A stretch of 64,000 nucleotides of DNA from Buttiauxella agrestis ATCC 33320. Its GTDB lineage: Bacteria; Pseudomonadota; Gammaproteobacteria; Enterobacterales; Enterobacteriaceae. Location: the NCBI RefSeq assembly GCF_000735355.1, contig NZ_JMPI01000050.1, forward strand, positions 1 through 64,000, written 5' to 3'. The first letter of the stretch is position 1, and every line of letters begins with the position of its first letter. Below are positions 23,389 to 46,895 of this stretch, in pieces. Below the pieces are notes generated by a model, which worked only from the letters and a program-made list of their open reading frames with translations, was not told the origin of the DNA and did not search any database. Both the position numbers and the translations under genes were made by a program.

Positions 23389-23436
23389 CGATTTAACTGA
23401 CTACGAGATAGTGACAGTTATGCCTGACGGCTCGTT

Positions 23437-23449
23437 ATTCCCACTCGAT
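23437..23449. repeat. attachment site copy, distal end of the element
   Basis: ATTCCCACTCGAT, identical to 45320-45332. Read on the minus strand it continues as ATCGAGTGGGAATAA, the original end of guaA (IEWE-stop) left behind by integration. Confidence 0.88.
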
Positions 23450-30275: not shown

Positions 30276-30573
30276 ATTCACTCCTTAGCCTACACGGTGT
30301 CAGATAAAGCACGTACTTTGTCCGATATTGACTGTCCTTTTCAACCGGCTTCAAAACTGGACAGCCCCTATGCCAATACCCTCTAACACATCACGCAGAC
30401 ACCTCATCCAAGCAATGAAACGAGTAACTCCTCCAACTCTCAGCCGCTCGTCGATCATTTCGGCCGTAGCTTAAACGTTAATGAAAAAACTATTCGGCCC
30501 AGGTCATCCTGAGCATTGTCATGCCTTTCTTTTTCCGGCAACACCTGGCCTACAAGTCAACATTTTCGCTGCC

Positions 30574-31752: not shown

Positions 31753-33790
31753 AACGCCCCTCCGCCCTAAAACGCATAAACGCGGCTGCACCTTCAGCGA
31801 GGTGTTTTTCCCAAGCATCGGGCGAAGTTAACGATGGGAGGCGCCCACGTTCACGTTTGAATTCAGCGGCACGCTTGGCGATCACTTTGGCATCTTCAGG
31901 CGTGATCGAGGTACGCTTGGCCGAGATGGCGGCCGCGACCTGCTTCAAGCTATCTTCGCTCATCGTCTTAGCAAGGATAGCGTAAGCCTCACCAAAGGGG
32001 TTGATGCGGTCGATAAGGTCTATGTCTAAATCGCGCACGTCCATCGCAAAGCGACGCACTCCGTCAATAAGAGCAGTATTGAGCGTCCCATCGTTCTCGC
32101 CAGTGGCAAGACGCTTGGCCTGCTGCGTGAGGTTAAGGGCGGCGATAGCATGCTGACGTACAGCCTCCTGATCTTCAGCATCAAGTTCAGGATACTTTTC
32201 TTTGATGATCTTACCCATACGAACCTGTGTTAACTCTTCAGGGAGCAGCTCTTCATCGAACAGACCTCGTTCGATGGCGGGCTTATCCTGCACAAAGGCC
32301 GCGATCACTTCGTTTAAATCTTCCTGGCAGATGCGTGCCGCTTCTTTGCTCTTGGGCTCGGCAAGTCCCTTAATCTCGATTTGATACGTTCCTGTCTGTT
32401 CATTAACACCAAAATTGCAGCTATCCGGGTCATACCCTCCATCACCATAATCAAAACCTGGAGTCGGACCGCTTTCTGGATTCTTGGGCTTGAACTCGAA
32501 GCGCGGAGCCAGTACCTGCTCCATCAACAAGCTCGCCGCGATAGCTTTCAAGGTATCGTTGACTGCCTCAGTGACTGCGCCCTCTACAGCGTCCGGCTCG
32601 GCGATCAAGTTAGTAAATCTCGCGCGAGTTTTACCCGGCGCGTCGCGAGTGGCGCGGCCGATAATCTGCACGATCTCAGTTAGGCTGGCACGGTAGCCAA
32701 CGGTCAGCGCATGTTCGCACCAGATCCAGTCGAAACCTTCCTTCGCCATACCAAGTGCAATAATGATGTCCACATAATCACGGTCTGTCTTCATTTCTAC
32801 AGCACGAAGGCTTTCCTGAATCTTGCCTTGGCTAGTTGGGTCCACCAAATCAGCGATACGCAACATTCGGCCATCGCGGCATTTGACTAGCTGGAAACCT
32901 GTCGCCGGATCCGCACCTTGCCAATCACCAAGCTCGCCAAGAATATGCTCCACTTCCTTAATTTTATCCTTCGTGCTCTCTCGCGAATTGACGTTGGGTA
33001 TATGGATAATGGTCTTCTTGTCAGGATCGAGGACATTAAGGATGTCATCGACGTAGGAGCCACTGTAGAAGAAGTAGCCGATGTCGAGTTGCTTGAGGTA
33101 TTCGTAACCGTTGAGCTGTTCGTAGTAGGTGTAGGTGACAGTATCGAACCTGGACTCATCCTGAGGAGCCAAAACGGCTTCCGCATCACCCCGGAAGTAG
33201 GAGCCGGTCATGGCAACGATGTGTGTCTTGTCACGAGCGATGAACTGCCCCAGATGCTGACCAAGCTTGTTATCCGGGTTAGCTGACACATGGTGGAATT
33301 CATCGACCGCGATCAGGCGATCGTCAAACGCTTCTACGCCGTAGGCATCGACCGCGAAGCGAAAGGTTGCGTGTGTGCAAACAAGCACCTTGTCGCTACT
33401 TTCAAGAAAAGAGCCGAAAGATCTTACCTTGCCACCGTTGTCGTTACCGGGCGCGTTGCACAGGTTCCACTTAGGTTCGACATGCCAATCAGCCCAAAAT
33501 CCAAACTGCGATAGTAGTTCATCGTTGAAGCTTGCACCGATGGATTTCTCTGGAACAACAATGATGGCCTGTTTGATTCCCTGATTTTCGAGTTTGTCGA
33601 GTGCAATGAACATCAGAGCACGACTCTTACCGGAGGCGGGTGGCGACTTGATGAGAAGATATTGTTCTCCGCGCTTCTCGTAGGCCATTTCTTGCATAGG
33701 CCGCATTCCAAGGGCATTGGCCTTGGTCGAAATTCCGTTGCGTGAGTAGGTAACGGAAACGGACGGTACTGATTTAATCTTATTGCTCAT
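31745..33790 (-). CDS. DEAD/DEAH-family helicase (restriction-type translocase)
   Basis: 681 residues. SF2 helicase with motif I KSPPASGKSRA (48-58), motif II VDEFHHVSA (162-170), motif III MTGSYFRGD and motif VI QIIGRATRD. This is the arrangement of restriction-type translocases. No nuclease motif is apparent in the C-terminal part. It overlaps the methyltransferase stop by four bases and the GIY-YIG start by eight, so all three are a translationally coupled operon. The fusion-free layout differs from type I or III R subunits, which carry their own nuclease. Confidence 0.85.
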   Translation of the reverse strand: MSNKIKSVPSVSVTYSRNGISTKANALGMRPMQEMAYEKRGEQYLLIKSPPASGKSRALMFIALDKLENQGIKQAIIVVPEKSIGASFNDELLSQFGFWADWHVEPKWNLCNAPGNDNGGKVRSFGSFLESSDKVLVCTHATFRFAVDAYGVEAFDDRLIAVDEFHHVSANPDNKLGQHLGQFIARDKTHIVAMTGSYFRGDAEAVLAPQDESRFDTVTYTYYEQLNGYEYLKQLDIGYFFYSGSYVDDILNVLDPDKKTIIHIPNVNSRESTKDKIKEVEHILGELGDWQGADPATGFQLVKCRDGRMLRIADLVDPTSQGKIQESLRAVEMKTDRDYVDIIIALGMAKEGFDWIWCEHALTVGYRASLTEIVQIIGRATRDAPGKTRARFTNLIAEPDAVEGAVTEAVNDTLKAIAASLLMEQVLAPRFEFKPKNPESGPTPGFDYGDGGYDPDSCNFGVNEQTGTYQIEIKGLAEPKSKEAARICQEDLNEVIAAFVQDKPAIERGLFDEELLPEELTQVRMGKIIKEKYPELDAEDQEAVRQHAIAALNLTQQAKRLATGENDGTLNTALIDGVRRFAMDVRDLDIDLIDRINPFGEAYAILAKTMSEDSLKQVAAAISAKRTSITPEDAKVIAKRAAEFKRERGRLPSLTSPDAWEKHLAEGAAAFMRFRAEGRYE

Positions 33791-36570
33791 GCATTGGTTC
33801 CCACTTTACGCTTCTTGCTTTTAGCCGGTGCGGTTGAAGCGGCTATCTTAGTATAGAGCTCGAACAACTTCTCAAGCCGCTCTGTGTCATTCTTAAAGCG
33901 GCGGCCAATGTAAATGCGCTCAAGCACTTCGTCATTACGCTCGTGCGCCCCCCGTAGATCGGCAGGCATGTTCGCGGGATCGTATAGTTGTGCGATGGTT
34001 GCAGGAAAATGATGCTCACGCGCCAGAAGTATGTCCTCTGCGCAGCGCGTGAGGTCAGCCTTATTTTTCTCGGTGAGAGTGGGTACTGGGAACGTATTCC
34101 AACCCAAAGTATTGGAGTACCGAAAATCTGTTTTCAGCTTGCCGCAGACGGTGGCAATCCAGACCAAATGCAAACGAGATGCAATGAGCGCAAGGTTCCA
34201 AAGCGGGGCGTCGTAGAGAGCAAAGGCGAGGTTGCTAACTACCGAATGATTATCAATCAGTCCAACAGGAAGATACTCGCGCCCTTCCGATGAAACACCC
34301 GGCAGAATTAGCGTGTGCTTGCCACCATGATACATCTCGCGAAACTGATGAGCCCGTGATGCCAACTCATTCGTACCAGCATCTTTACTTTTGAGCCGCA
34401 TTTCCCGAACGCCATCAATGCGAACCCGAATAGACGCAATCTCCAAAGCTTGCGGCAATTTTACATCAGGAATCCAGAGGCACTTACGTACAACTCCTCG
34501 AATAAACTCGGCAGAGCCATAGATACGCCGAAGAAATGTTTCTTCATCCTGCTTGCTCAAACCGAGCGAAGCTGCGTCATCCGCCGATAACAAAAGATTT
34601 CCTCCATCGACAGGCATGTTGCCGAAAGACATATCGGGCAGACCTGATATGCTCTTGCGCTGGCCTTCGACTACAACATCCTCACCAACACTCAGATAGG
34701 GTGTGATGTTTGTCGCCTCGCGCACCGTAGTTTGGCCATTGCGGTCCAAGTCGTAAAGTAGCCTCGTCTTACTCACCTCCGTAGAAAGACCAACGATAGC
34801 GACTGTTACACCCGCGTTGTGTGCAGCAAGGTTCGTCCATTTGAAGCTGGAGTGCGCGAAGCGAATGTGGGAACCACATTTGAAAATTGCTGGCCACAGG
34901 ATAGGAACAATTCGGCCTTGGCAGATAGAGTTAGTGCTAACAAAAGCCGAATCCGTCGGTGTGACTTGCGCGTAGGCAGCGGCTTTCATGAACCAACCAC
35001 CAACATAATCGATTTGCTTGGACGAAATACCATAAGGTTCAAATACCGAAGCCAAATCCTCCTTCTGCTCTTTAGTCTGCGTTTGGCTACCTTTGTAAGG
35101 CGGGTTGCCACAGATGTATGTCTCCCCACCTTCGTTCTGAAAGTCAATCTCTGCTTGACCGAGAGGCGTCTCAAAGAGCTTATCTGCCTGCAACTTCACG
35201 CCAATTCCGGACGGAGGGCAAACGCTCAACCAATCAATCCGCAGTGCATTGCCACATGTAATCCAATTATCATTACGCAAAGGAAGAAACTCGGCCAGCG
35301 CAAGTTTTAGTCCTCGGTACACCACATCGCACTGATACTCAGCGATAACTAGCGCGAGACGGGCAATCTCCGCTGGAAAGTCTCGTATTTCGATCCCGCG
35401 AAAGTTGGTAAGAGGGATGTCAGAGGCATTATCCACCTCGCCACGTCGTCGATTAATCTCGGCCTCGATGGCGCGCATTTCCTTGTACGCAATGACTAAG
35501 AAGTTCCCAGATCCGCATGCTGGGTCAAATACGCGGATTCGCGCCATGCGCTTGCGCAGATTGAGCAGCATGCGCGGATTTTCACCGGCTTCATCCAGTT
35601 TCGCCCGCAGTTCGTCGAGGAATAGTGGGTTAAGCACCTTGAGTATATTGGGGACACTAGTGTAATGCATGCCCAACTCACCACGCTCTTCGTCTTCGGT
35701 AATGGCCTGAATCATCGAGCCGAATATGTCCGGGTTGATTTTGGTCCAATCCAAATTGCCAACGTGTAGCAGGTAGGAGCGCGCGATGCGGCTAAAACGC
35801 GGCACCTCGACACTCCCCGAGAACAAAGCACCATTAACGTAAGGAAACTCGGTAGCCCAGCGTGGAATACCAACTGCAGTTCGCTCATCTCGAGGGGTGT
35901 TCATAGCACGAAACAGTGTGGCGATGACCTCATGCATATTAGAAGCATCGCGCTCACTCATTTGTGCAATGGTGTCAGTAAAGCGTCCCTTGCCTATAAA
36001 TATCTCAGTGTCTTCGGCGAAAAAACAGAATATTAGACGCGCCATGAACTTATTCATGTCATGACGACGCTCCGCAGTACCCCATTCAGGGTTGTCTTTC
36101 AGCAGTTCAACATAAAGGCGGTTCAGGCGGCTGGTAGCCCGGATGTCAAAGGCGTCTTCGCTGATCTGCCGAACAGTGCTGATACCTGCCAGTGGCAAAA
36201 AGAAACCGAAGTGATCGGGAAAGTCTTTAAAGGCACAAGCGACAGTCTGGCCGCTGATGAGGTCTTCAGCTTCGAAGTCTTTTCCATCTGTGGCGAGGAT
36301 GAATTTGGCCTTGGTCTTGCCTGTTGCCGGGCTGGCCTTGAGTGAAGCCAGCATTTGTGTTACTTGCCCTTCTTCACTAGCCAAAATGTGAATGTTATTG
36401 GTCTGAAGAACGCCGCCCAAATCGGACTTATTCGATGCTCCGGCGCGCAAGCGTTTGATAGTCGTTTCCTTGTTACCAAAGGCTTCAAGGAAAGCATAAG
36501 GAAACTCTATGGGATCAAAGGGTTGCTCTGCAAGATCCGTGATGGCTTGTTCAATTTCTACGGCGTTCAT
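33787..36570 (-). CDS. MmeI-like DNA adenine methyltransferase without a visible nuclease domain
   Basis: About 927 residues from MNAVEIEQAITDL (ATG 36570, GGAGAG nine bases upstream; frames to 36594 are less likely). Order: short N-terminal region, a helical spacer of the MmeI type (FFLPLAGIS ... LLKDNPEW ... RLIFCFFAEDTEIF), SAM motif I FDPACGSGNFLV (near 348), catalytic NPPY (near 490), target-recognition region, and an MmeI-type C-terminus. Type IIG relatives carry a PD-(D/E)XK nuclease at the N-terminus; I see none here. It heads an operon with a helicase and a GIY-YIG protein. Probably an N6-adenine methylase. Confidence 0.87.
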   Translation of the reverse strand: MNAVEIEQAITDLAEQPFDPIEFPYAFLEAFGNKETTIKRLRAGASNKSDLGGVLQTNNIHILASEEGQVTQMLASLKASPATGKTKAKFILATDGKDFEAEDLISGQTVACAFKDFPDHFGFFLPLAGISTVRQISEDAFDIRATSRLNRLYVELLKDNPEWGTAERRHDMNKFMARLIFCFFAEDTEIFIGKGRFTDTIAQMSERDASNMHEVIATLFRAMNTPRDERTAVGIPRWATEFPYVNGALFSGSVEVPRFSRIARSYLLHVGNLDWTKINPDIFGSMIQAITEDEERGELGMHYTSVPNILKVLNPLFLDELRAKLDEAGENPRMLLNLRKRMARIRVFDPACGSGNFLVIAYKEMRAIEAEINRRRGEVDNASDIPLTNFRGIEIRDFPAEIARLALVIAEYQCDVVYRGLKLALAEFLPLRNDNWITCGNALRIDWLSVCPPSGIGVKLQADKLFETPLGQAEIDFQNEGGETYICGNPPYKGSQTQTKEQKEDLASVFEPYGISSKQIDYVGGWFMKAAAYAQVTPTDSAFVSTNSICQGRIVPILWPAIFKCGSHIRFAHSSFKWTNLAAHNAGVTVAIVGLSTEVSKTRLLYDLDRNGQTTVREATNITPYLSVGEDVVVEGQRKSISGLPDMSFGNMPVDGGNLLLSADDAASLGLSKQDEETFLRRIYGSAEFIRGVVRKCLWIPDVKLPQALEIASIRVRIDGVREMRLKSKDAGTNELASRAHQFREMYHGGKHTLILPGVSSEGREYLPVGLIDNHSVVSNLAFALYDAPLWNLALIASRLHLVWIATVCGKLKTDFRYSNTLGWNTFPVPTLTEKNKADLTRCAEDILLAREHHFPATIAQLYDPANMPADLRGAHERNDEVLERIYIGRRFKNDTERLEKLFELYTKIAASTAPAKSKKRKVGTNA

Positions 36571-36850
36571 TTGCGTACAGCTCTCCATTGGCATGTGACC
36601 GCCCTGCTGCTACTGGTGTGCAGTGAACTCATGTCAAATCCTAGGTTTTCTTGGAAATTTTTGGCAGCAAGTTTAACAGATGAGAACCCGGCTCTGTAGC
36701 GGATTCAGCCTCCTACTCAGCGTTTCGCAAAGCACTGTTACCTGTTTAGAGCGAGAATTGTAGCTTCGGGAAAACAGCAAGCTCATGTTGAAACTTTCAT
36801 GACACTTGAAGGGCGGCTGTATCATAACATATGAGGTAGTAGCGGATTGA

Positions 36851-37367: not shown

Positions 37368-38711
37368 TCAAGATTTATCATTGCCGGATAAGCTATCTCC
37401 GGCAAAATCACTATGTTCGCGGTTATCCCGACGAGTAGCTGTTTGTTTACGTATCTGAGTCGCCAACTCCCCTCCAATAGTATGTTGGACACGAGAATAA
37501 TTGCCACTTCGCTTCATTGTCTGGTACTCAGCAGCCCCGTTAGCTATAGTGCTTCCCATATGGCTTGCCATGCGGCCAGCTCGCGAGAAGGATGCAGCAA
37601 AACCTTTGCTTCCCCCACTGGAGCTACCTTTACCAGATGGTTGCTCTCCCGACGTGTCTACAGAACCGGTATCTTCACCACCAATTACGCCACCGGAACC
37701 CGACTCTTCGGCCATGGCAGCTTGCGCAGACTCGAACGCTGCTTTTAATGCAGAGGCTCCGCCGCTGACTTGAGCTGATGCACCCATTGCCATTGCCCCA
37801 GCACCGCTGATGGCAGTAGCGGCAGCGCCGGTAATCATACCCGCCCCAAATCCACCAATCCCTTGTAAAGAAGCCCCTCCTACAACACCTGATAACAATA
37901 GTGGTAGCTTATTCGTTAATACTAGCAGGATAATTGACGCCAGAAGCAGAATGATAAGACTATTAAGATCAGGAACATCATCTTTAATAAGAGAAAAATA
38001 TTGATCTATAAATGATTGTCCAATCCCAATAATTAATGTCATCGTGAATAATTGAATGCCAATCGATAAAACAGTTCGTAAGTAATTAATTGCTATATCA
38101 GAGGTCCATTTCGAACCACCAAACCCCAGCAATATAACTCCTGCATAACATAACACCCATGCAGAAACCAACATGATTAGCATATTTGTCGCTATAAGGG
38201 ACATCACTACCAAAACGATTATCGCGACTGTTATCATAATGGTGGATATCATTGGCGACCAAATTGATGCGGCTGAACTGACCTTTGTTAATATCGCAAA
38301 CGCCATATCAACTATGCTTGAGGGAGAAATACCAGTACTTATTCCTAACGCGTTTGCTGCAAGTTGTCTCATTGAATTAATTATGGATTGCGATATGGAT
38401 GGGCCGTTGATTAAAAGATAATAAAAAAAACCAATGACGGCAAAAAAGCGAACTATTTCAGCGAGTACACCTGTCAACCCTTCCCCTTGCATCGCCATCA
38501 TACCAAATGTCCAAACCATACTTATTAATACCAGCCCCCAGAAGAGCCAATTTGCATAGTCTGCAATTACTGCTGTCCATGTACTGGCTACTTGTTGAAA
38601 CTTATCTAATAAAGTATCAAGTAGCCCGCTACTATCTAATTGACCAGCATAGGCATTTATAGAAAAGAAAAGTATGATACCTAAAAAGGTGAGCTTACTT
38701 ACTATTTTCAT
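37368..38711 (-). CDS. trbL: TrbL/VirB6-like conjugal transfer membrane protein
   Basis: About 447 residues from MKIVSKLTFLGIILFF. A signal-like N-terminus is followed by six or more membrane helices up to residue about 310, then a Gly/Ser-rich hydrophilic C-terminus, the usual TrbL/VirB6 plan. In IncP-1 and Ti systems this protein lines the inner-membrane channel of the type IV secretion apparatus. It follows trbK by two bases, the IncP order trbJ-trbK-trbL. The other mating-pair genes are absent from the window. The in-frame ATG at 38720 has no spaced ribosome site. Confidence 0.85.
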   Translation of the reverse strand: MKIVSKLTFLGIILFFSINAYAGQLDSSGLLDTLLDKFQQVASTWTAVIADYANWLFWGLVLISMVWTFGMMAMQGEGLTGVLAEIVRFFAVIGFFYYLLINGPSISQSIINSMRQLAANALGISTGISPSSIVDMAFAILTKVSSAASIWSPMISTIMITVAIIVLVVMSLIATNMLIMLVSAWVLCYAGVILLGFGGSKWTSDIAINYLRTVLSIGIQLFTMTLIIGIGQSFIDQYFSLIKDDVPDLNSLIILLLASIILLVLTNKLPLLLSGVVGGASLQGIGGFGAGMITGAAATAISGAGAMAMGASAQVSGGASALKAAFESAQAAMAEESGSGGVIGGEDTGSVDTSGEQPSGKGSSSGGSKGFAASFSRAGRMASHMGSTIANGAAEYQTMKRSGNYSRVQHTIGGELATQIRKQTATRRDNREHSDFAGDSLSGNDKS

Positions 38712-38713
38712 GA

Positions 38714-38887
38714 TTACCATTCTCGTTTAGGGCTTGGTTTATTATTACTCCGTAGAGCACATTTATCGTATTTATGTTCATCAAATTTATTATCTGGCGT
38801 CGATAAACAATCTTTATCATTTTTATCGCAAGAACATATGGCCAATAAACTGATCAGAATAAATACAATCAAAAGATTATCTTTCAT
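38714..38887 (-). CDS. trbK: TrbK-like small lipoprotein (entry exclusion candidate)
   Basis: 57 residues from MKDNLLIVFILISLLAICSC. A short hydrophobic signal ends in a Cys-containing lipobox-like stretch, followed by a charged, cysteine-bearing tail ending PSPKREW. Position between trbJ and trbL, size and lipoprotein character match TrbK, the entry exclusion protein of IncP-1 plasmids, which blocks uptake of a second related plasmid. The sequence itself is too short for a firm family call. The last residues repeat the C-terminal motif of the neighbouring TrbJ. Confidence 0.65.
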   Translation of the reverse strand: MKDNLLIVFILISLLAICSCDKNDKDCLSTPDNKFDEHKYDKCALRSNNKPSPKREW

Positions 38888-38898
38888 TCTGCGTTTCC

Positions 38899-39693
38899 TC
38901 ACCAAATTCGCTTCGGGCTTGGTGTATTTTCTCCAGCTAACGCTTTTTCATCAGCGGCTATCTGTTGTGATTCTTTATCTGCCTGAGCCTGTGCCAGTGT
39001 TGCTGCAGCGTTTTGTTGGACTACCAGAAGTGAGCGGATTTGCAGTAACTGATTTGTCTGTGCACTGGCAAGCTGGTTTGCCGCCTGAATAGCTTCCATT
39101 TGCCCTTGTGCGCCGCTTGCCTGAGTTTGTAATTCGGCAAGATTATCAGCATCGCTCTGCAGGGTGTTCTGCTGCTCGTCAATTACCTTAAATACTGCGT
39201 CATTGGCCTTTTTACGCGCCCCTGAGCTGTTCTGTTCAGCTTCACGCAGTGCACTAATTTCAGACGCGGTACATTCAACATTGCTGTTAAAGCAAGGTGA
39301 TGTCCTGTAGTAGTTAACATCCTGATATCGTTTCAGGTACGCATCGAGACTCCCGGCCTGATTCTTGTAGTAATTAAGGGTATCCTGCACCTGCAACAAT
39401 TTATTAATTGTTGAATTTGCCTGGTCCCAGATATAGGCCGCAGGTGCTACGGTGTTCTGCAGCATGTTTTCATACTGCTGCAACTGCATCTGGTACTGCT
39501 GGATTTGTTTAGTCACAGCCTGAACGTTGTTAACTGCGCTGATTGTGGTCTGAACCACATTAGTGCCATCAATAACTGGAATTCCGGCCTTCACCGGTAA
39601 TGCCATGACGGACGCCACGAAAGAAACTATTAAAGCTTTTTTAGCGGCTAAAACCCTTCTTTGTGATGAAACTACTCGGAACATTAAATTCAT
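38899..39693 (-). CDS. trbJ: TrbJ/VirB5-like conjugal transfer protein
   Basis: 264 residues. Signal peptide (VSFVASVMALPVKA-G, cleavage near residue 36), then a long helical, glutamine-rich body with coiled-coil stretches (QIQQYQMQLQQYENML; QLASAQTNQLLQIRSLL) typical of P-type TrbJ/VirB5, a minor pilus-tip component. In RP1/RK2 trbJ and trbK both affect surface exclusion. The ATG at 39693 has GAGGTG upstream. A KorB-type operator (39640-39652) lies inside its first 20 codons. It ends PSPKRIW, echoing TrbK. Confidence 0.85.
   Translation of the reverse strand: MNLMFRVVSSQRRVLAAKKALIVSFVASVMALPVKAGIPVIDGTNVVQTTISAVNNVQAVTKQIQQYQMQLQQYENMLQNTVAPAAYIWDQANSTINKLLQVQDTLNYYKNQAGSLDAYLKRYQDVNYYRTSPCFNSNVECTASEISALREAEQNSSGARKKANDAVFKVIDEQQNTLQSDADNLAELQTQASGAQGQMEAIQAANQLASAQTNQLLQIRSLLVVQQNAAATLAQAQADKESQQIAADEKALAGENTPSPKRIW
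39640..39652. promoter_or_regulatory. KorB-type operator inside trbJ
   Basis: TTTAGCGGCTAAA, a perfect match to the IncP-1 KorB operator TTTAGCSGCTAAA. It falls within the trbJ signal-peptide codons. Confidence 0.8.
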
Positions 39694-39774
39694 TTGCTCA
39701 CCTCTTTTTCAACAGATTAGTAATATTTAACACTCTGTCTGTTAACAGACGCAGGGATATAGGAAACCACACAT

Positions 39775-40127
39775 TTATTTATCCAAGATTTTATCCATAA
39801 TGTTCCTTAGTTCTTGCCGAGTTGATTCTATTTTTGCAAGCAAGGTTCTTATCAGTGTGGGTGAAAAATCAACTGTTCGAGGATCATTTGCGAGCCATAA
39901 TTTAAGTAATCCGCCAAGTCTTCCAAGATCAGCGTTTACTCGGCTAAGTTCATTAACCTGTTTTATATCTACGATAGAATCAACCTGATAACCCATTGCA
40001 ACTCTACGAACAAAACAGGCAACACTTAATCCAGATTCTTCTGCATTTTCTTGGATGAGAATTTTTCTTCGGGTAAACAATAAACTTTTATTGGCGTACT
40101 ATTTTTTCTAGTCTGAGTAACTTTCAT
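39775..40127 (-). pseudogene. traJ: traJ-like relaxosome gene with a one-base frameshift
   Basis: From an ATG at 40127 (GGAGAG upstream) the frame reads MKVTQTRKNSTPIKVYCLPEE, matching the TraJ N-terminus of RP4, then runs out of frame. The continuation (LIQENAEESGLSVACFVRR ... LGRLGGLLKLWLANDPRT) is in the next frame. The shift falls at a run of five A (minus strand, about 40066); six A would restore one 117-residue TraJ. RP4 TraJ binds the oriT inverted repeat and recruits TraI relaxase. It is either a broken gene, a sequencing error in a homopolymer, or a site of -1 slippage on AAA. Confidence 0.85.
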
Positions 40128-40155
40128 ATAGCTCTCCATACAGGCGGTAGCCTGG

Positions 40156-40256
40156 CAGCCTCGCAGAGCAGGACGCCCTTGAGCCGCGATGCGGCGAATA
40201 GGGAGTGGTAAAGTTGGAACACCGTAGCGGTGGGCCTACTTTACATGTCCTGCCCT
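40156..40256. other. RP4/RK2-type origin of transfer (oriT)
   Basis: From memory, this segment follows the RP4 oriT closely: CAGCCTCGCAGAGCAGGA at the left, GAATAGGGAG, then the TraJ-binding inverted repeat with arms GTAAAGT (40208-40214) and ACTTTAC (40238-40244) enclosing GGAACACCG and CGGTGGGCCT, then the nick region TGTCCTGCCC (40246-40255), against TATCCTGCCC in RP4. Cutting is expected between G and C of CTG/C. As in RP4, the inverted repeat lies between nic and traJ, which is transcribed away. No traK-like gene is seen on the other side. Confidence 0.9.
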
Positions 40257-40448
40257 CCAGTAGCCGTAGTATATCTGTGCACATCAATGTGTATTTCAGT
40301 GTACAGGATGTGTTTTCTTAGCGTATTAATGCAGGATTACTCGGGTAAAATTCTTCGGTATATCGTGAGTCTCGATCCCGTCTCACTGGTGATAAACTCA
40401 GCCATAATTGATTTCATCGCACCTAACTCACAGGGAAATTTATCGGAT

Positions 40449-40461
40449 TTTAGCGGCTAAA
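40449..40461. promoter_or_regulatory. KorB-type operator between oriT and the origin region
   Basis: TTTAGCGGCTAAA, perfect match to the IncP-1 KorB operator. It lies upstream of the traJ-trbJKL genes, about 320 bases from the traJ start. Confidence 0.82.
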
Positions 40462-40602
40462 AATTTTAAAGCCTCCAAATCACAGCTAACCAATTATTTT
40501 ATATGCTAAAAAAACAATCTACCTCATGTGTCAACAATACAAATACAAGCTATGAATGCTTACAGAACCAATCGTATCCAAAAGAAACAGATAACATTTA
40601 AA

Positions 40603-40630
40603 AATGTATGTTTAGCTAAACAAATCTCAA
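40603..40630 (-). promoter_or_regulatory. Candidate promoter with KorA-type operator in its spacer
   Basis: GTTTAGCTAAAC at 40610-40621 is a perfect match to the IncP-1 KorA operator. On the minus strand a -35-like TTGAGA (40630-40625) and a weak -10-like TACATT (40608-40603) flank it with a 16-base spacer, so KorA-type binding would block this promoter. It points towards oriT, traJ and trbJKL. The operator match is direct; the promoter is inference. Confidence 0.68.
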
Positions 40631-40693
40631 TAAAAAATTAACATTAAAAAATCGAATAGTGATAATCAGGAATGTAATTTGCCCCCATCGAGC

Positions 40694-40905
40694 TTATCCA
40701 CAGTATCTATCCTTTAACTACAGGTTAATTTTTATATAGGTTAAACCTACAGGAAAACACTACAGGGTGCTCTATAACCCTTTGTTATAAACTGACTTTA
40801 CAGCGTTCCAAGAGACAGAACATGCGCATACCGAGACAAAACATGCGTAAACTGAGACAGAACATGCGCAGAATACTTTCTTTAAAGCGTGACAGAATAT
40901 GCGTG
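40694..40905. other. Iteron-type replication origin region
   Basis: A perfect DnaA box TTATCCACA (40694-40702) beside AT-rich DNA is followed by four repeats of a 17-bp unit: GAGACAGAACATGCGCA at 40812 and 40854, GAGACAAAACATGCGTA at 40833 and GTGACAGAATATGCGTG at 40889. The first three are spaced 21 bp apart, about two helical turns. A near-palindrome TAGGTTAAACCTA (40737-40749) and ACTACAGG repeats lie between. The repA gene adjoins, so this is probably the origin bound by RepA. Confidence 0.75.
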
Positions 40906-40973
40906 GATAACTTTCTTCATCCCCAAGCTTATACACACTGGTAAAGTGTAAGTTGATAGAGGTTCATCACGCT

Positions 40974-41963
40974 TCAATATCCCTCAGTTCTGTATTTTTT
41001 CCTTCGAGGTACTTGAGGAGCACCTGGTTTTATAAGAAGTCCTTTGTCGGTTGGTGTAGCGTCTAGCCCTGGCCATGCCCGCTGTACCTTTTCAAGCCCA
41101 TCGTTAAACCGTCGTCTAAAGTCTTTGACATCGGCATAATTTGATCCCATTTGCTCCATCAAACCTAGCCAAGGGATAATTGTGACTCGCTTTAAATAAC
41201 TCACACGATACGTCGCCCAGCAATATATATCTAAGGCCATCGGAGAGCGCTTAATCAAACGCAATACTCTCATATCCAATGGGACAGGTTTATCTGTTAT
41301 CAGTTGAAAAAATTTAGGTGACAACTCAACCCAAGATTCCCATGAAAAATCTTGTTCTGGTTGTTTTGCACTCCATAAAATATGGGAAATATCAGCTACT
41401 CTGGCTCCCATTTCATCCTCACAAATATATCCACTTTCCTCATTTAACTCTGCAAACGTAACACTAATCGTAGTTTTAAATAATCGCCGCATCTGTTCTC
41501 GAAATGGGTTTATAGAACCATTTTTTCCACCGGTTGAGCGAAGACCTAAGTCCTCCATGAAACGCCGTTGGGAGCGACCCAATTCAAGCTTACGTGCTTC
41601 CTGTTCTGTAATAAATCCTTTATCCAGCTTTGACTTATTTCTAACTGCTTGAGAACTAACCCAAACTAATAGTAATCGAGCATAGCAACCGAAAGGCAAA
41701 CCTACTGCTGATGGTGCCATCATATGCATGGTTAAATTACCATTTTTACGGCACCACTCATTCAATCTTGGGTTGCTGTGTGGTAGAGTTGCTTGAATTA
41801 AGAACCGAGCAATAAAACCTATTTCATTGGCCTCCAGAGCACTACACTCCTGGATTGCCAAAAGTTTATCTATATATCTCGTATTTCTCTTTACTTTCAC
41901 GGCCCCTTTTTTGTTTTGAGTCGGTCCCCTAGATGGAACATCCATTACATATTTAATCGTCAT
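40974..41963 (-). CDS. repA: RepA-type plasmid replication initiator
   Basis: About 329 residues from MTIKYVMDVPSRG (a GTG four codons earlier is possible). The C-terminal half carries the hallmark of the plasmid-encoded RepA family: DMRVLRLIKRSPMALDIYCWATYRVSYL, then a winged-helix-like region (WLGLMEQMGSNYADVKDFRRRF). It should bind the adjacent iterons and open the origin after excision, giving the element a plasmid-like replicating phase. The AlpA-like gene lies immediately upstream on the same strand. Confidence 0.85.
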   Translation of the reverse strand: MTIKYVMDVPSRGPTQNKKGAVKVKRNTRYIDKLLAIQECSALEANEIGFIARFLIQATLPHSNPRLNEWCRKNGNLTMHMMAPSAVGLPFGCYARLLLVWVSSQAVRNKSKLDKGFITEQEARKLELGRSQRRFMEDLGLRSTGGKNGSINPFREQMRRLFKTTISVTFAELNEESGYICEDEMGARVADISHILWSAKQPEQDFSWESWVELSPKFFQLITDKPVPLDMRVLRLIKRSPMALDIYCWATYRVSYLKRVTIIPWLGLMEQMGSNYADVKDFRRRFNDGLEKVQRAWPGLDATPTDKGLLIKPGAPQVPRRKKYRTEGY

Positions 41964-41975
41964 GATGACTCGCAC

Positions 41976-42203
41976 TTACCAAAAAAAACCAGGTCTTGCT
42001 GCCTTTAAAGCAGATCTGCGCTTTTCTTCAATCCAGTTTTCAACCTCAGCTAAATCCCAAGCAACACTTCGGCTAGTCAAGACAATACGCTTAGGAAACT
42101 CACCACGCTGTTCCAAGTTATAGATTGTTCGATCAGACAAAGGAATCATCTTGAGTAATGTTCTGCGATTAATCAGCATTTTATTAGTCATTGACGAATT
42201 CAT
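41976..42203 (-). CDS. AlpA-family DNA-binding regulator
   Basis: 75 residues from MNSSMTNKMLINRRTLLKMI (ATG 42203, AAGGAG seven bases upstream). MerR/excisionase-like winged helix: RRTLLKMIPLSDRTIYNLEQRGEFPKRI, then the SRSVAWDLAEVENWIEEKR motif of the AlpA family. Such proteins activate integrase genes or act as excisionases in P4-type islands. It is followed by repA after only 12 bases, so it may also control replication. Confidence 0.85.
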   Translation of the reverse strand: MNSSMTNKMLINRRTLLKMIPLSDRTIYNLEQRGEFPKRIVLTSRSVAWDLAEVENWIEEKRRSALKAARPGFFW

Positions 42204-42216
42204 ACCATATCTCCTT

Positions 42217-42236
42217 ATCCACACTGTTTAGTGGAT
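42217..42236. promoter_or_regulatory. Inverted repeat in the divergent alpA/unknown-gene region
   Basis: ATCCAC, eight bases, GTGGAT, lying just beyond the alpA ribosome site, between two divergent genes. A plausible operator for AlpA or for the divergent HTH protein. Not tested. Confidence 0.4.
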
Positions 42237-42290
42237 ATTGCCTGAAATTTCTTGTATCTTAGTGGTATCAATTGGACAAATAGGTTGGAC

Positions 42291-43325
42291 ATGAAAATAT
42301 TTGAAACGGAAGAAAATGCGCAAAAAAGACTAGGGCTGTATTACATCCCTGTTTGGGAACATACTGATGAAACGGTAGTGCATGCCATCCGCATCTTTAG
42401 GGAAAAATGGCATTCATATTCTGATAAATCTAAACGGTATAACATCATAAAATTGATCAAAGAGTTGATTGATCCATCTGTATCGGAATATTTAAGTCGA
42501 CTTCCAAATCATTATTTATCTTTTTGCCCTGCCTCAATAAAAAATTGTAACTATAGCGATCTTGTTAAACTCAGAGGCTTTTCTTACACGGCCGATCAAA
42601 TTCACTTTCATCTGAGAAATTTTGTTAACCATAGTTCTCATACAGAGCAAGACATGTTTTTCATATCCACTCAGGACATGCTCAAATCATTTTTTATGTA
42701 TTGTGAAGGAAACAGACCAAAAAATTCAAAGTTAGCCCCCGATCTATATGTAAATATGGAAAGAAAAACGCGAATTTGTGCCTTATGTGGAAACCCGACT
42801 GAATTTTCATCATTTATTAGATCATGGAAAGAGAATGGAGTTATTGAAGGTGAAGAAAACGAAGATAATGAGAAATCTGGAAAAAAAAAGAGACCAGACT
42901 TCAGTCAAACATACTGTCTAAATCACCGACCGAAACTGCACGATGGTTCTTGGAACGCGACCTATAAACAGGCAAAACGTTCTACAAAGCAATTTGAGCA
43001 AGAAGTCTTGAGGCTACGGAGACAAATTGCCCATCCAGATCGCTACAATGCAAAATCTGGAGATAATTTAGTTGATGAGTACTTTTATCATTACCTCTTT
43101 GATTCTTCACTAGATCCAACTAATGTGCCTGAACTGCGCAACTTAGCACGCAGAATGGTAGATTCGCGACTGACTGACAACAAAAAGCGAATACTGGTTC
43201 TTCATAAGCAAGGGCTTTCCAATCGCGAAATTGGTATAAAATTAGGGGGCTTAACAGGTAGTGTACTAACAAATCAAGCTATTTCTAAAGCCTTAGGAAC
43301 GATTCGTGATGAGTTCATCTTATAA
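42291..43325 (+). CDS. Unknown protein with a CxxC...CxxxH site and C-terminal helix-turn-helix
   Basis: 344 residues from MKIFETEENAQKRLG (a TTG 13 codons earlier is possible). No family recognised. Visible: a possible zinc site CALCGNP (about 163-169) with CLNHRP (about 208-213), an acidic/lysine linker between them (EGEENEDNEKSGKKKRPD), a basic helical stretch (KRSTKQFEQEVLRLRRQIAH), and a LuxR/sigma-4-type helix-turn-helix near the end (KRILVLHKQGLSNREIGIKLGG). It is divergent from alpA, AT-rich in composition, and followed after 20 bases by a KorB operator. Probably a DNA-binding regulator of the element. Confidence 0.7.
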   Translation: MKIFETEENAQKRLGLYYIPVWEHTDETVVHAIRIFREKWHSYSDKSKRYNIIKLIKELIDPSVSEYLSRLPNHYLSFCPASIKNCNYSDLVKLRGFSYTADQIHFHLRNFVNHSSHTEQDMFFISTQDMLKSFFMYCEGNRPKNSKLAPDLYVNMERKTRICALCGNPTEFSSFIRSWKENGVIEGEENEDNEKSGKKKRPDFSQTYCLNHRPKLHDGSWNATYKQAKRSTKQFEQEVLRLRRQIAHPDRYNAKSGDNLVDEYFYHYLFDSSLDPTNVPELRNLARRMVDSRLTDNKKRILVLHKQGLSNREIGIKLGGLTGSVLTNQAISKALGTIRDEFIL

Positions 43326-43345
43326 AATTCCATTTCTGGCAAAAT

Positions 43346-43358
43346 TTTAGCGGCTAAA
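43346..43358. promoter_or_regulatory. KorB-type operator downstream of the unknown HTH gene
   Basis: TTTAGCGGCTAAA, perfect match to the IncP-1 KorB operator, flanked by further A/T pairs that extend the symmetry (AAATTTTAGC...GCTAAAAT). Confidence 0.82.
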
Positions 43359-43757
43359 ATCTCACTCAGAAAAACTAAACACATAATACATTTTAATATT
43401 ATCATCAACCAATTATGTAAAATCTTCCGCGATTAAACGGTATTAAGATGATGGCTCATGGTGTTATGATTTATCATTTGTAGCGCAGCTGTAAGCGATT
43501 ATGAAAAATGGATCTCTGTGATATTACCTCACCAGTAAACCACAGAAGCTGGTCTGTAATGACATAGGGCTGATCAATTCTATGGTTATGCAATGGCTAA
43601 TCACCTTACTTGCCTCTGATCATGAAAGGCATTAGTTTTCCTGCGAGTAAGTCTAAGTCAAAGGGTCGTTTACAGTTGCCCTTCCCTCTGCTCAATAGGT
43701 ACTAACTTACTTACTGAATCATAGAGATGGCATTTAGAGACATAGATGCCTCCATAT

Positions 43758-43770
43758 TTTAGCGGCTAAA
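43758..43770. promoter_or_regulatory. KorB-type operator near the integrase 3' end
   Basis: TTTAGCGGCTAAA, perfect match to the IncP-1 KorB operator, 48 bases beyond the integrase stop. Confidence 0.82.
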
Positions 43771-43818: not shown

Positions 43819-45009
43819 TCAATTACATACCCATTCATCAATCATATTCGCCCAATCTTGCAGCATCTCTGATCTCTGCTCGCGGTACTCGGCTTTATTA
43901 TAAACAGCCCGTACCCCTTTCTGTTCATGCGCAAGGCACTTCTCAATCCAGTCAGTATTGTACCCGGCCTCGTGTAGTAAGGTGCTAGCTGTACGCCGTA
44001 AATCATGGGGGCCAAACTTGGGCAATGACTGCCCTTCTTTCTGTGCCAGACGATACGTCAGTGTCAAAACCCGGTTTAAAGTAGCGCTACTCATTGGCGC
44101 ATCGGAATCGTAGCGCGAAGGAAGGATAAAATCAGAACTACCGGCAAAGGTTTTGAGAGCAATCAAAATATCCATTGCCTGTCGGGGAAGAAAAACCAAA
44201 TGTGGATTACGTCGTTTCATCCTCTCCTTTGGTATCGTCCATACTGCTTCACTAAAATTGATCTCGTTCCAGGTCGCGTTAGTAAGCTCACTTTTACGTA
44301 CCATCGTTAACAGCAAAAGTTTAACCACTGCTCTGATTGATGGCGTCGTTCCTATCCGTTCCATATAACGATACATCAGACCGATTTCAATTGGCGTCAA
44401 TGCCCTGTCACGAGGCTCAAATTTCGCTATGCTTGCAGGCCGTACCAAATCAGCTGGATTATCCACCTTCTGACCGCGCTCAATAGCCCAGCGATAGACT
44501 TGCAATACAATCTCTCTGGCGTGCACAGCTGTCGCCGGTGCCCCTCTCTCGACAATGTTATCGGTTAATGCTCGTAAGTCTTCATGTGTAATCTCGGTCA
44601 ATTTCTGCTGCGCAAATTTTGACTTCAACTCCCTTTGATATACCGAACGCCTCATATCACGCGTCGATTCAGCCATTTGATAACCGCGTAACCATTTCTC
44701 AGCCCACGCACCAAAAGTCTCCGCATCTTTGATACGCGCTTTATCTCTGGCTTTTTCCCTAGCAGGCGATCTTCCACTGGCAACCATTTTTTTGGCTTCA
44801 TTGAGCCGTTCACGCGCTTCTGCAAGCGTGATCCCTCCAACACCATAGCGGCCAAAAGTAACGGTCTCCTGTCTTCCGTTTATTAAATAGTTATAACGAA
44901 ATGAGATCGTTCCTGCCGGAGTGACCGCAACATACAGACCATCACGGTCATTAACTTTATAGAGTTTCTCCTTCGGCTTAAGGTGACGCAGCCTGGTGTC
45001 AGTCAACAT
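43819..45009 (-). CDS. int: P4-type tyrosine integrase
   Basis: 396 residues. N-terminal DUF4102-type arm-binding domain (MLTDTRLRHLKPKEKLYKVNDRDGLY), core-binding domain, and C-terminal catalytic domain with Arg238 (MVRKSELTN), HDLRR (335-339), His361 (LAHEQ) and Tyr370 (AVYNKAEY). Complete, so probably active. It lies about 310 bases from the guaA end and should recombine at the 13-bp guaA core. The 300-base stretch to the guaA end probably carries arm-type binding sites. Confidence 0.95.
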   Translation of the reverse strand: MLTDTRLRHLKPKEKLYKVNDRDGLYVAVTPAGTISFRYNYLINGRQETVTFGRYGVGGITLAEARERLNEAKKMVASGRSPAREKARDKARIKDAETFGAWAEKWLRGYQMAESTRDMRRSVYQRELKSKFAQQKLTEITHEDLRALTDNIVERGAPATAVHAREIVLQVYRWAIERGQKVDNPADLVRPASIAKFEPRDRALTPIEIGLMYRYMERIGTTPSIRAVVKLLLLTMVRKSELTNATWNEINFSEAVWTIPKERMKRRNPHLVFLPRQAMDILIALKTFAGSSDFILPSRYDSDAPMSSATLNRVLTLTYRLAQKEGQSLPKFGPHDLRRTASTLLHEAGYNTDWIEKCLAHEQKGVRAVYNKAEYREQRSEMLQDWANMIDEWVCN

Positions 45010-45317: not shown

Positions 45318-46895
45318 TCATTCCCACTCGATAGTCGCTGGCGGTTTGCCAGAAATATCGTAAACCACACGGGAAATACCGTTAACTTCGTTGATAATGC
45401 GGTTGGAAACACGGCCAAGGAAATCGTATGGCAGGTGCGCCCAATGCGCGGTCATAAAGTCGATGGTTTCAACTGCACGCAGTGAGACAACCCAATCGTA
45501 TTTACGGCCATCGCCCATCACGCCAACAGAGCGTACCGGCAAGAACACGGTAAATGCCTGGCTGACTTTGTTGTAGAGATCCGCTTTATGCAGTTCTTCA
45601 ATAAAGATCGCATCAGCACGACGCAGCAGGTCGCAATACTCTTTCTTCACTTCACCCAGCACGCGCACGCCTAAACCTGGCCCCGGGAACGGGTGGCGGT
45701 AAAGCATGTCGTATGGCAGGCCCAGTTCCAGGCCAATTTTGCGCACTTCATCTTTGAACAGCTCACGCAGCGGCTCAACCAGACCCATCTTCATCTCTTT
45801 CGGCAAGCCGCCCACGTTGTGGTGAGATTTGATGACGTGTGCTTTACCGGTCGCAGAAGCAGCAGATTCGATAACGTCAGGATAAATGGTACCCTGAGCC
45901 AACCACTTCACGTCTTCTAGTTTCAGTGCTTCTTCATCGAACACTTCAACAAACACGCGGCCAATGATTTTACGTTTTGCTTCCGGATCGTTCTCACCCG
46001 CCAACGCGGACAGGAAACGTTCTTCGCCTTTAACGTGAATGATGTTCAGACCGAAGTGATCGCCAAACATATCCATCACTTGTTCAGCTTCGTTCAAACG
46101 CAGCAGGCCGTTATCAACGAATACACAAGTCAGACGGTCGCCAATCGCGCGGTGCAGCAGCATTGCGGTAACGGAAGAATCCACGCCACCTGACAAGCCC
46201 AGAATCACTTTGTCATTGCCCACTTGTTCACGCAGGCGAACAATCGCATCTTCGATGATTTTTGCCGGAGTCCACAGTGCTTCGCAGCCGCAGATATCCA
46301 GAACAAAACGTTCCAGCAAACGCTGGCCCTGACGGGTATGGGTCACTTCCGGGTGGAACTGCACACCATAGAAACGTTTTTCTTCGTTCGCCATAATCGC
46401 GAACGGGCATGTTTCGGTGCTGGCAACGGTCACGAAGTCTGAAGGGATCGCGGTGACTTTATCGCCGTGGCTCATCCAGACATCGAGAAGCGGTTTGCCA
46501 TCTGCACTCAGGGAATCTTCGATACCGCGAACCAGTGCGCTGTCTGTTTTAACTTCGACCTGTGCGTAACCAAATTCACGTTCGTTAGAACCCTCAACGT
46601 GGCCGCCAAGCTGCATCGCCATGGTCTGCATGCCGTAGCACACGCCAAATACTGGCACACCTGCGGTGAAGACATATTCAGGCGCACGTGGGCTGTTATG
46701 TTCAGTGGTACTTTCCGGGCCACCAGAAAGGATGATACCGCTTGGGTTGAAATCACGAATCTGTGCTTCAGTGACATCCCATGCCCACAGCTCACAGTAA
46801 ACGCCCAATTCACGCACACGGCGCGCAACGAGTTGAGTGTACTGAGAACCGAAATCAAGGATAAGTATGCGATGTTTATGGATATTTTCCGTCAT
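45318..46895 (-). CDS. guaA: GMP synthase (glutamine-hydrolysing)
   Basis: Converts XMP to GMP with ATP and glutamine. 525 residues, the E. coli length. The class I glutamine amidotransferase domain has the nucleophile in GVCYGMQ and a HPEVTH motif; the ATP-pyrophosphatase loop is LSGGVDSS; the C-terminal dimer domain ends PPATIEWE. The last codons are the element attachment site, so integration rebuilt the 3' end without changing the protein. It is 66 bases downstream of guaB on the same strand (guaBA operon). Confidence 0.98.
45320..45332. repeat. attachment site copy, guaA-proximal end of the element
   Basis: ATTCCCACTCGAT inside the last codons and stop of guaA, identical to 23437-23449. 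The bases beyond differ between the two copies, so the repeat is 13 bp. Confidence 0.88.

Follow-up and report, generated by a model that had tools for sequence, protein, structure and literature searches.

The first 64,000 nucleotides of contig NZ_JMPI01000050.1 of Buttiauxella agrestis ATCC 33320 (the 64 kb window) contain an integrative mobilizable element of 21.9 kb, inserted at guaA and akin to GIsul2 and the IncP islands, that carries four exact KorB operators and one KorA operator. We lean slightly towards the view that this element lives as a satellite of IncP-1-type plasmids: its traJ-trbJKL operon would be switched by the KorA and KorB of a helper, and its excised circle may be replicated and partitioned by the helper's TrfA and KorB/IncC. 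IncP-1 plasmids move resistance among distant bacteria, and the KorA/KorB pair is a textbook case of global repression. If the proposal is true, the Kor regulon extends past the plasmid into the chromosomes of many hosts, and plasmid entry would start or silence a second suite of transfer genes, moving phage-defence cargo. The timing of mobilization in helper-dependent guaA islands then becomes testable, and the system would be an IncP counterpart of SGI1/IncC that is built on repressors rather than on an activator.

The element shares a guaA-type integrase, AlpA, a replication gene and the trbJ-trbK-trbL cassette with GIsul2 and the IncP islands (PMC5704250, PMC9376610). A tyrosine integrase gene lies next to the guaA 3' end where the island is integrated (Table 1), and a copy of this end with one mismatch is the probable far end, 1.78 matches at up to three mismatches being expected by chance. 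Exact guaA-end repeats of at least 14 bases were not found in the window. The four direct repeats beside the RepA_C gene are probably iterons of the element's own RepA. The 357-aa ORF gave no match in Pfam and NCBIfam searches. GIsul2 has no relaxase, and an IncP helper has been proposed for it (PMC5704250, PMC9376610); the window likewise has no match to the relaxase TraI of RP4 or of pJJ1886_4. For ICERspD18B, a relative that bears trbJKL, both transfer to E. coli and insertion at guaA have been shown (PMC7775301). The present element differs from GIsul2 in its cargo and in having RepA_C instead of the IncQ-like RepA/RepC, and is thus a relative of GIsul2 and not GIsul2 itself. It also has the full set of Kor sites, whereas the GIsul2-like locus L101 keeps only the operator in trbJ. 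In the accessible text of the GIsul2/IncP-island literature, 'Kor' is absent from PMC9376610 and 'KorB' from PMC5704250.

Table 1. Features of the guaA island, with positions in the window.
Feature	Position	Strand	Remark
Probable far end	23435..23449	+	guaA 3'-end copy, 1 mismatch
Gabija GajB-like helicase (cargo)	27700..28728	-	PADLOC E 7.8e-49
Gabija GajA-like ATPase/nuclease (cargo)	28713..30281	-	PADLOC E 9.1e-111
Type IIG restriction enzyme-methyltransferase, MmeI-like (cargo)	33787..36594	-	Pfam and PADLOC
trbL, mating-pore protein, VirB6-like	37368..38720	-	TIGR02783 E 4.1e-81
trbK-like small lipoprotein gene	38714..38905	-	between trbJ and trbL; named by position and lipoprotein-like start
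trbJ, mating-pore protein, VirB5-like	38899..39693	-	NF010452 E 1.6e-114
KorB operator 1	39640..39652	.	exact; within trbJ 5' end
traJ, relaxosome protein	39775..40139	-	two tblastn pieces; NikA-like domain
oriT, IncP type, with nic region	40143..40273	.	
KorB operator 2	40449..40461	.	exact; upstream of oriT and traJ
TrfA-type iteron	40519..40534	-	core as in pJJ1886_4 and RP4 repeats
Promoter-like pair TTGAGA-16-TACATT	40603..40630	-	spans KorA operator; reads toward traJ-trbJKL; consensus match only
KorA operator	40610..40621	.	exact
Four direct repeats, about 17 nt	40812..40905	+	differ from TrfA motif
RepA_C replication initiator	40974..41975	-	PF04796 E 4.4e-33
AlpA-like excision regulator	41976..42224	-	PF05930 E 5.3e-13
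357-aa ORF	42252..43325	+	common to guaA-type islands; homologues in 19/27 loci
KorB operator 3	43346..43358	.	exact; just 3' of 357-aa ORF
KorB operator 4	43758..43770	.	exact; just 3' of int
Tyrosine integrase (int), guaA type	43819..45009	-	PF00589 E 6.3e-23
Near attachment site	45318..45332	+	guaA 3' end

The 13-bp palindrome TTTAGCSGCTAAA, the consensus of the KorB operator, occurs in four exact copies. It fits the wording '13-bp palindromic operator' used in PMC10954446. A motif search verified the positions of all five sites that a preliminary description of this DNA had listed, and the window holds no further copy of TTTAGCGGCTAAA even at one mismatch. The expectation for the window is 0.10, none of 100 shuffles reached four copies, and the Markov expectation for the 21.9 kb element is 0.001 exact KorB and 0.0013 exact KorA operators. 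In the whole genome (4,725,816 bases, 93 contigs) these four are the only exact KorB operators, ordinary chromosome having none, and the reversed control pattern is absent. A chance origin of the KorB operators is ruled out by the shuffles, the genome count and the Markov expectation. The lone KorA operator, GTTTAGCTAAAC, is a weak signal, because at up to one mismatch, where 0.12 matches are expected in the window, 11 of the 100 shuffles had at least one. The promoter match around it is also weak evidence; the region has fewer promoter-like sites (8) than its shuffles (16.3).

The operators had been described as those of the IncP-1 plasmids RK2/RP4. Indeed, the same KorB 13-mer recurs within both RP4 and pJJ1886_4, but pJJ1886_4, an IncP-1 relative, is the nearer of these two plasmids, its TrbJ being 85% identical to that of the island and RP4 TrbJ 56%. 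TrbL is 54% identical to pJJ1886_4 TrbL across 477 aa, and the trbK-like ORF has a 98% match to an ORF in the same place in an E. coli island. The traJ frame is intact in most of the fetched relatives and is interrupted in the present assembly, so this copy may itself be impaired; traJ in locus L122 is likewise annotated as broken. The oriT aligns locally with that of RP4 at a score of 125 (100 shuffles at most 34) and with that of pJJ1886_4 at 117 (shuffles at most 32). A single iteron, TTGACACATGAGGTAG, is probably insufficient for an origin. It has the TGACANNTGAGG core of IncP-1 oriV iterons (consensus in PMC9499019), and is the only match to TGACANNTGAGGKRS in the whole genome.

That the element encodes neither regulator was borne out by tblastn with the RP4 and pJJ1886_4 proteins: at E<=1, neither the window nor any of 26 further island loci has a match to KorA, KorB or TrfA of either plasmid or to IncC of pJJ1886_4. 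A korB gene elsewhere on the element can thereby be discarded. With neither trfA, korA-incC-korB nor relaxase matched at E<=1 in the window, the element is unlike RP4/RK2 and pJJ1886_4, with which it shares the 13-mer operators, the trbJ site, iterons, oriT and TrbJ/TrbL; it sits at guaA with an integrase. Matches to TraI are present in five Vibrio/Salinivibrio islands. The remaining genome gave one ParB-like match to KorB (31%, E 7.6e-5), but no KorB orthologue and no TraI match that would indicate a resident IncP helper, a search that had no positive control and shows little.

The sites were compared across 27 islands, of which 24 had been found through a resemblance to RepA, to TraJ or to the stretch from trbJ to repA. 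The other three (L106, L107 and L123) were found via operator clusters, i.e., the pattern itself, and numbers without them are given below. Excluded were L108 and L095, judged to be the same place as L009, and L104, L105 and L109-L113, which are plasmid, relaxase-bearing or phage stretches or duplicates of other loci; the automatic operator assignment was corrected by hand for L009 (operators 3 and 4) and L106 (operators 1, 3 and 4). Conservation, which the preliminary description had made a condition of its proposal, holds throughout for operator 1, and several islands lack operators 2, 3 or 4. Operator 1 lies within the start of trbJ in 27/27 islands (24/24 without the three), exact in 22 and with only the central base changed in five. 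Operator 2 is found upstream of traJ/trbJ in 20/27 (17/24), the exceptions being the five Vibrio/Salinivibrio islands, L007 and L101. Operator 3 lies at most 40 bases from the end of the 357-aa ORF in 11 of 19 loci and 435-572 bases from it in three, and operator 4 lies 43-65 bases 3' of the int stop in nine of the 17 loci that hold int. Both are confined to guaA-type islands, almost all of which have a recognised replication gene; tRNA-Ser-type islands, which have no recognised replication gene, have neither. The KorA operator is exact in 11/27 islands and has one mismatch in three more. The TrfA-type iteron core is present in 27/27 (24/24) islands and in only 1/51 distant loci of RepA relatives, and its tail subtype tracks the TrbJ lineage (8/8 and 19/19). 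No KorB operator with up to one mismatch was found in those 51 loci, so the operators are not a general trait of RepA relatives.

The operator sites look maintained. In 19 trbJ genes (two plasmids and 17 islands, the other ten being incomplete or fetched later), 89 amino-acid columns are invariant and seven of these use a single codon; three of the seven are the TTA, GCT and AAA of the operator, and the intervening Ala codon differs among the genes at the operator's central base and nowhere else. The same gene-relative sites recur in islands that differ in integrases and replication genes, with exact 13-mers in flanks that do not align. This flank comparison only illustrates the point, since the sites were chosen by motif match; more weight falls on the codon usage in trbJ and on the counts of islands that have each site. 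Operator 1 could have come along with trbJ, since the trbJ genes of pJJ1886_4 and RP4 hold a KorB operator at the same place. Operators 3 and 4 follow island genes, and copying of the trb operon from a plasmid thus does not explain them.

The recurrent sites, the sites at island genes and the lineage-matched iterons support the earlier suggestion of an element that reads an IncP-type helper through that helper's Kor proteins. Sites at control points had also been proposed; operators 1 and 2 do lie in trbJ and upstream of traJ, but in this copy operators 3 and 4 are at no evident control point or promoter. They flank the gap between int and the 357-aa ORF, whose 3' ends converge. The element carries cis sites of the helper: an IncP-type oriT, KorB operators, a KorA operator and a TrfA-type iteron. 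As long as no helper is present, nothing would repress the promoter region of traJ-trbJKL. Once an IncP plasmid enters, the relaxosome and mating pore then being built could draw on TraJ, TrbJ, TrbK and TrbL of the island, and TraI from the helper would nick the island oriT. As helper KorA and KorB build up, both would close the operon, KorA from within the promoter spacer and KorB after loading at operators 1 and 2, so that the island's supply of pore parts stays matched to the trb operon of the helper, itself under Kor control. KorA and KorB being repressors, an established helper should shut the operon off rather than switch it on. The excised circle may further be replicated with the help of TrfA on the iteron and partitioned with that of KorB/IncC at the four operators. 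KorB-KorA silencing acts over distance in RK2 (PMC11790492), and Kor-controlled operons of RP4 are transiently induced in new transconjugants (PMC7314908).

SGI1 and its IncC helpers offer a similar case of a satellite with its own pore subunits, a replication gene and sites for regulatory and partition proteins of the helper (PMC10954446, PMC7826253). While activation by AcaCD turns SGI1 on, the helper proteins here are repressors, and the TrfA-type iterons and the IncP-type oriT set the island apart; the likeness implies no sequence relation. Candidate sites for a helper ParB, as in the parS mimics of SGI1, are present on the element. The KorB operators may be centromere-like in the first place, the excised and replicating island using helper KorB/IncC and perhaps displacing the helper, which by analogy with SGI1 is a serious but rather unlikely account. 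KorB is a ParB, and the distribution of operators 3 and 4, outside the transfer operon and tied to islands with a replication gene, speaks for it. Operators 1 and 2 and KorA operators, however, also occur in islands without a recognised replication gene, and to our knowledge KorA has no role in RK2 partition. In the SGI1 case, two parS mimics to which the ParB of the helper binds make SGI1 more stable and the helper less so (PMC10954446), but RK2 partition requires a particular operator, OB3, and others can destabilise, according to a study title in the references of the same paper.

Chiu and Thomas (2004) are cited in PMC7314908 and PMC11952213 for a site in the P. putida KT2440 chromosome that RP4 KorB binds and for IncP oriT remnants in the chromosomes of P. 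aeruginosa and S. flexneri, regarded as traces of past integration. The sites could similarly be leftovers of an IncP ancestor without present use. The common position of the trbJ operator in RP4 and pJJ1886_4 agrees with this, and decay does occur, as seen in the interrupted traJ here and in L122 and its absence from L106, L107 and L123. It is nevertheless improbable, as the synonymous codons in the trbJ operator are invariant, exact sites stand amid unrelated flanks and adjoin island genes, and L123, having lost traJ, retains four exact operators and the iteron, which can also be read as lag. In contrast to those traces, there are here multiple sites at conserved positions on a mobile element, together with iterons. 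Operators on a multicopy excised circle might instead titrate KorB and KorA and derepress the transfer and replication genes of the helper. With up to four operators and a replication gene per element this is conceivable, but RP4 has eight exact operators in 49.6 kb and pJJ1886_4 has 14 in 50 kb, so that a high copy number would be needed and the idea seems very improbable. Least credible is that the palindromes serve as weak hairpin terminators or as a site for a host protein. In its favour are the convergent 3' gene ends at operators 3 and 4 and the AT-richness of the extended palindrome; the genome has no further exact copy, however, and the centre varies with no compensating changes seen between the arms, the reverse of what a hairpin predicts, which disfavours a terminator.

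If control by helper KorA and KorB is accepted, a broader and doubtful, though conceivable, generalisation follows its lines. The islands would be 'cis-only' satellites of at least three architectures, differing in integrases or replication genes, that carry a TraI oriT and KorB, KorA and TrfA sites and are regulated, replicated and partitioned by IncP-1 proteins; the tRNA-Ser-type islands, with their two or three iterons, would have TrfA as their sole initiator, and some filamentous phages may read KorB. In a survey of E. coli genomes that finds only close DNA, the korA-incC-korB stretch of pJJ1886_4 was present at high identity in 63 of 5426 genomes, and all 68 places were on plasmids.

The mobile island at guaA encodes a guaA-type tyrosine integrase, AlpA, a RepA_C initiator, traJ, trbJ, a trbK-like gene and trbL. 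A segment upstream of traJ aligns with the oriT of the IncP-1-type plasmids RP4 (score 125; best of 100 shuffles 34) and pJJ1886_4 (score 117; shuffles at most 32). The far end is probably a one-mismatch copy of the guaA end, giving a size of about 21.9 kb, and the element is an integrative mobilizable element of the GIsul2/IncP-island kind. According to a proposal in a review, islands like these rely on IncP helpers and reshape their mating pore (PMC5704250). In the window assembly traJ is interrupted by a frame change, possibly an assembly error; the gene is uninterrupted in most relatives compared, broken in L122, and was looked for and not found in L106, L107 and L123. The cargo is for phage defence and includes Gabija-like GajA/GajB and a type IIG restriction enzyme-methyltransferase; the cargo of relatives is annotated as retron, ABC-three-component, MAD1 and type III restriction genes.

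The window was compared with 26 related loci, giving a set of 27 islands. Eight share the RepA_C initiator and the guaA-type backbone (the window, L005, L008, L009, L096, L097, L122, and L123), with E. coli, Citrobacter, and Erwinia among the hosts. Six have the guaA-type backbone and, where a replication gene is recognised, an IncQ-like one (L098, L102, L106, L107, L117, and the GIsul2-like L101), and five are Vibrio/Salinivibrio islands with their own TraI (L010-L013 and L015). One Vibrio plasmid record contains guaA pieces (L007). This V. alginolyticus 'plasmid' pL29 (L007:1-27092) has numerous broken genes beside a guaA-type island; it may be a piece of chromosome, or else an excised island, in an assembly of low quality. 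The remaining seven (L099, L100, L103, and L118-L121) have an unrelated integrase and share the traJ-trbJ-trbK-trbL cassette; no replication gene was recognised in them, and the integrase adjoins a tRNA-Ser gene in L099 and L100, the two in which this was annotated. Among 5426 E. coli genomes, 77 cover at least 80% of window positions 38890-42240 at one place, and 338 have some match when plasmids and short matches are counted. The commensal E. coli HS also has an island of this kind, broken up by insertion sequences.

The preliminary description had reported four exact KorB operators and one exact KorA operator in an element encoding neither regulator. The sites lie where it placed them, and searches with KorA, KorB, IncC, and TrfA gave no matches at E<=1 in this element or in the 26 other island loci. 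The four KorB operators are also the only exact copies in the 4.73 Mb genome, where a reversed control pattern has none. At least one copy of the KorB 13-mer is found in 90 of 392 genomes of the same family, by hand count one copy in 60 and two or more in 30. Seven genomes encode a TraJ with 54% or more identity to that of the island, and all seven are within these 30, compared with 23 of the 385 other genomes having two or more sites; G301, one of the seven, has its two sites on separate contigs. Thirteen genomes, again by hand count, have three or more sites. In six of them (G000, G096, G151, G292, G293, and G350) three or four sites are in an island of this kind, in G001 they are on a korB plasmid, as is probably the case in G383 given its TraJ and how many sites it has, in G290 three are on a filamentous phage genome, and in four (G128, G141, G154, and G180) they are scattered.

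Features of the element and conservation of its operators among the 27 islands
Feature	Position in window (strand)	Location	Present in	Absent from
KorB operator 1	39640	start of trbJ	27/27: 22 exact, 5 (L099, L118-L121) with the central base alone changed	
KorB operator 2	40449	upstream of traJ or trbJ	20/27	L010-L013, L015, L007, L101
KorB operator 3	43346	past the 357-aa ORF	14/19 loci having the ORF	L012, L096, L097, L106, L107
KorB operator 4	43758	43-65 bases past the int stop	9/17 loci with int	L096, L097, L011-L013, L015, L007, L101
KorA operator	40610		exact in 11/27: window, L008, L009, L122, seven tRNA-Ser-type loci (two each)	
TrfA-type iteron TTGACACATGAGGTAG	40519-40534 (minus)			
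Promoter-like pair TTGAGA-16-TACATT	40630-40603 (minus)	spans the KorA operator		
oriT-like segment	40143-40273			
traJ	39775-40139			
Phage defence cargo	27700-36594			
guaA-end copy, one mismatch	23435	far end (probable)		

Ten of the 14 copies of operator 3 are exact and four have an altered central base; 11 lie at most 40 bases from the end of the ORF and three (L098, L102, and L117) at 435-572 bases. A KorA operator with one mismatch is found in three further islands (L005, L097, and L123). At operators 2, 3, and 4 the 13-mer is kept although the flanks diverge between island types, a comparison that is only an illustration, as the sites were chosen by motif match. The site in trbJ gives a fairer test of maintenance. 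In 19 trbJ sequences (17 islands, RP4, and pJJ1886_4), which share kinship and hence are not 19 independent trials, 89 invariant amino-acid columns have synonymous codons, and a single codon is used in seven. Three of these seven are the TTA, GCT, and AAA of operator 1, the others being Gln, Gln, Glu, and Tyr, and none of the remaining invariant Leu, Ala, and Lys columns in trbJ has a single codon. The Ala codon flanked by TTA and GCT varies (GCC 11, GCG 7, and GCA 1), and only at the central base of the operator.

The IncP-1 TrfA iteron core TGACANNTGAGG is found in all 27 islands, against one of 51 distant RepA-relative loci. The longer iteron pattern has a single match in the genome, and since we estimate about one chance match per genome, its weight comes from where it lies and from its conservation. 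In pJJ1886_4 iteron repeats of this kind adjoin trfA, and those of RP4 are of the TGAGGGGC kind; the RK2 iteron has been described together with a plasmid that has thymine, adenine, and guanine at positions 13-15 instead (PMC9499019). The iteron subtype follows the TrbJ lineage: the eight islands with TrbJ nearer RP4 have GGC tails only, and a TAG or TAC tail occurs at least once in each of the 19 with TrbJ nearer pJJ1886_4, in some of them together with GGC. In the RepA_C islands the KorA operator, if there is one, is followed by the iteron and operator 2, then by oriT and traJ if these are present, and finally by operator 1 within trbJ. The tRNA-Ser-type islands place their two or three iterons between a KorA operator pair and operator 2, and most of them repeat operator 2 at a distance of 15 bp, at times in degenerate form. 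In these islands two to three of the KorA-operator/iteron sites precede a HigA-like gene. Distant from oriT, a further iteron with an RK2-type tail is found beside a HigA-like gene in L096 (9902-9941, accompanied by a TAG-type copy), L097 (9868), and L122 (2874).

The sites are real and conserved, and their best interpretation is as control sites for a helper plasmid, carried by a plasmid satellite. On RK2, KorB slides after loading at its operator and is locked by KorA at the KorA operator (PMC11790492), and new transconjugants briefly induce the Kor-controlled operons of RP4 (PMC7314908). Based on these two properties traJ-trbJKL would be open in the absence of a helper, active when a helper enters, and shut as the Kor proteins accumulate. 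The promoter-like pair is directed toward traJ-trbJKL, and a similar pair is present in L005, L008, L096 (which has no KorA operator), and L097; it was not found in L009, which lacks part of the region. Because promoter-like sites are less numerous in this region than in its shuffles (8 vs. 16.3), the pair is only a lead.

Alternatively, the KorB operators might serve partition by way of the helper, a use with a direct precedent in SGI1 (PMC10954446). Only guaA-type islands have operators outside the transfer operon, and a replication gene was recognised in nearly all of these islands; this speaks for some role of operators 3 and 4 in partition. Partition is compatible with control of traJ-trbJKL, and both can hold. 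Since operators 3 and 4 adjoin island genes, copying of a plasmid trb operon does not explain them. The slot between these two operators may be a Kor-flanked cargo site; the window has no ORFs of annotated size there. In E. coli 1223 (L005:26092-27332) it holds two genes, one of which encodes an EexN-family lipoprotein (entry exclusion).

In the open literature, covered as titles and abstract openings plus passages of the papers named here, we found no report that places KorB/KorA operators or TrfA iterons within islands at guaA. Chiu and Thomas (2004) are cited for binding of RP4 KorB to a chromosomal operator of P. putida, and for IncP remnants with oriT in the P. aeruginosa and S. flexneri chromosomes (PMC7314908; PMC11952213); these are prior hints of Kor sites and IncP traces in chromosomes.

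KorB operators are also found in viral sequences. Three public viral contigs have two exact extended-form operators each (L135:3162-3315, L139:5526-5608, and L160:7765-8544); none of the searched IncP and island-set proteins matched L135 or L139, and in L160 the only match was a weak TrbA-like one. The G290 phage (contig C70; L105:1-9278) is a circular filamentous phage genome encoding a G2P replication protein, a secretin, and a pI/Zot-family assembly ATPase, and it has three exact KorB operators plus a near match. Three are found in L132 too, whose G2P is identical. Ten of 29 further phage relatives (L161-L189) have one exact operator each, intergenic or within the secretin gene, in which case coding could account for it, and phage I2-2 (G2P 57% identical) has no operator with up to one mismatch. 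I2-2-like phages use conjugative pili, and these filamentous phages may be another kind of Kor reader.
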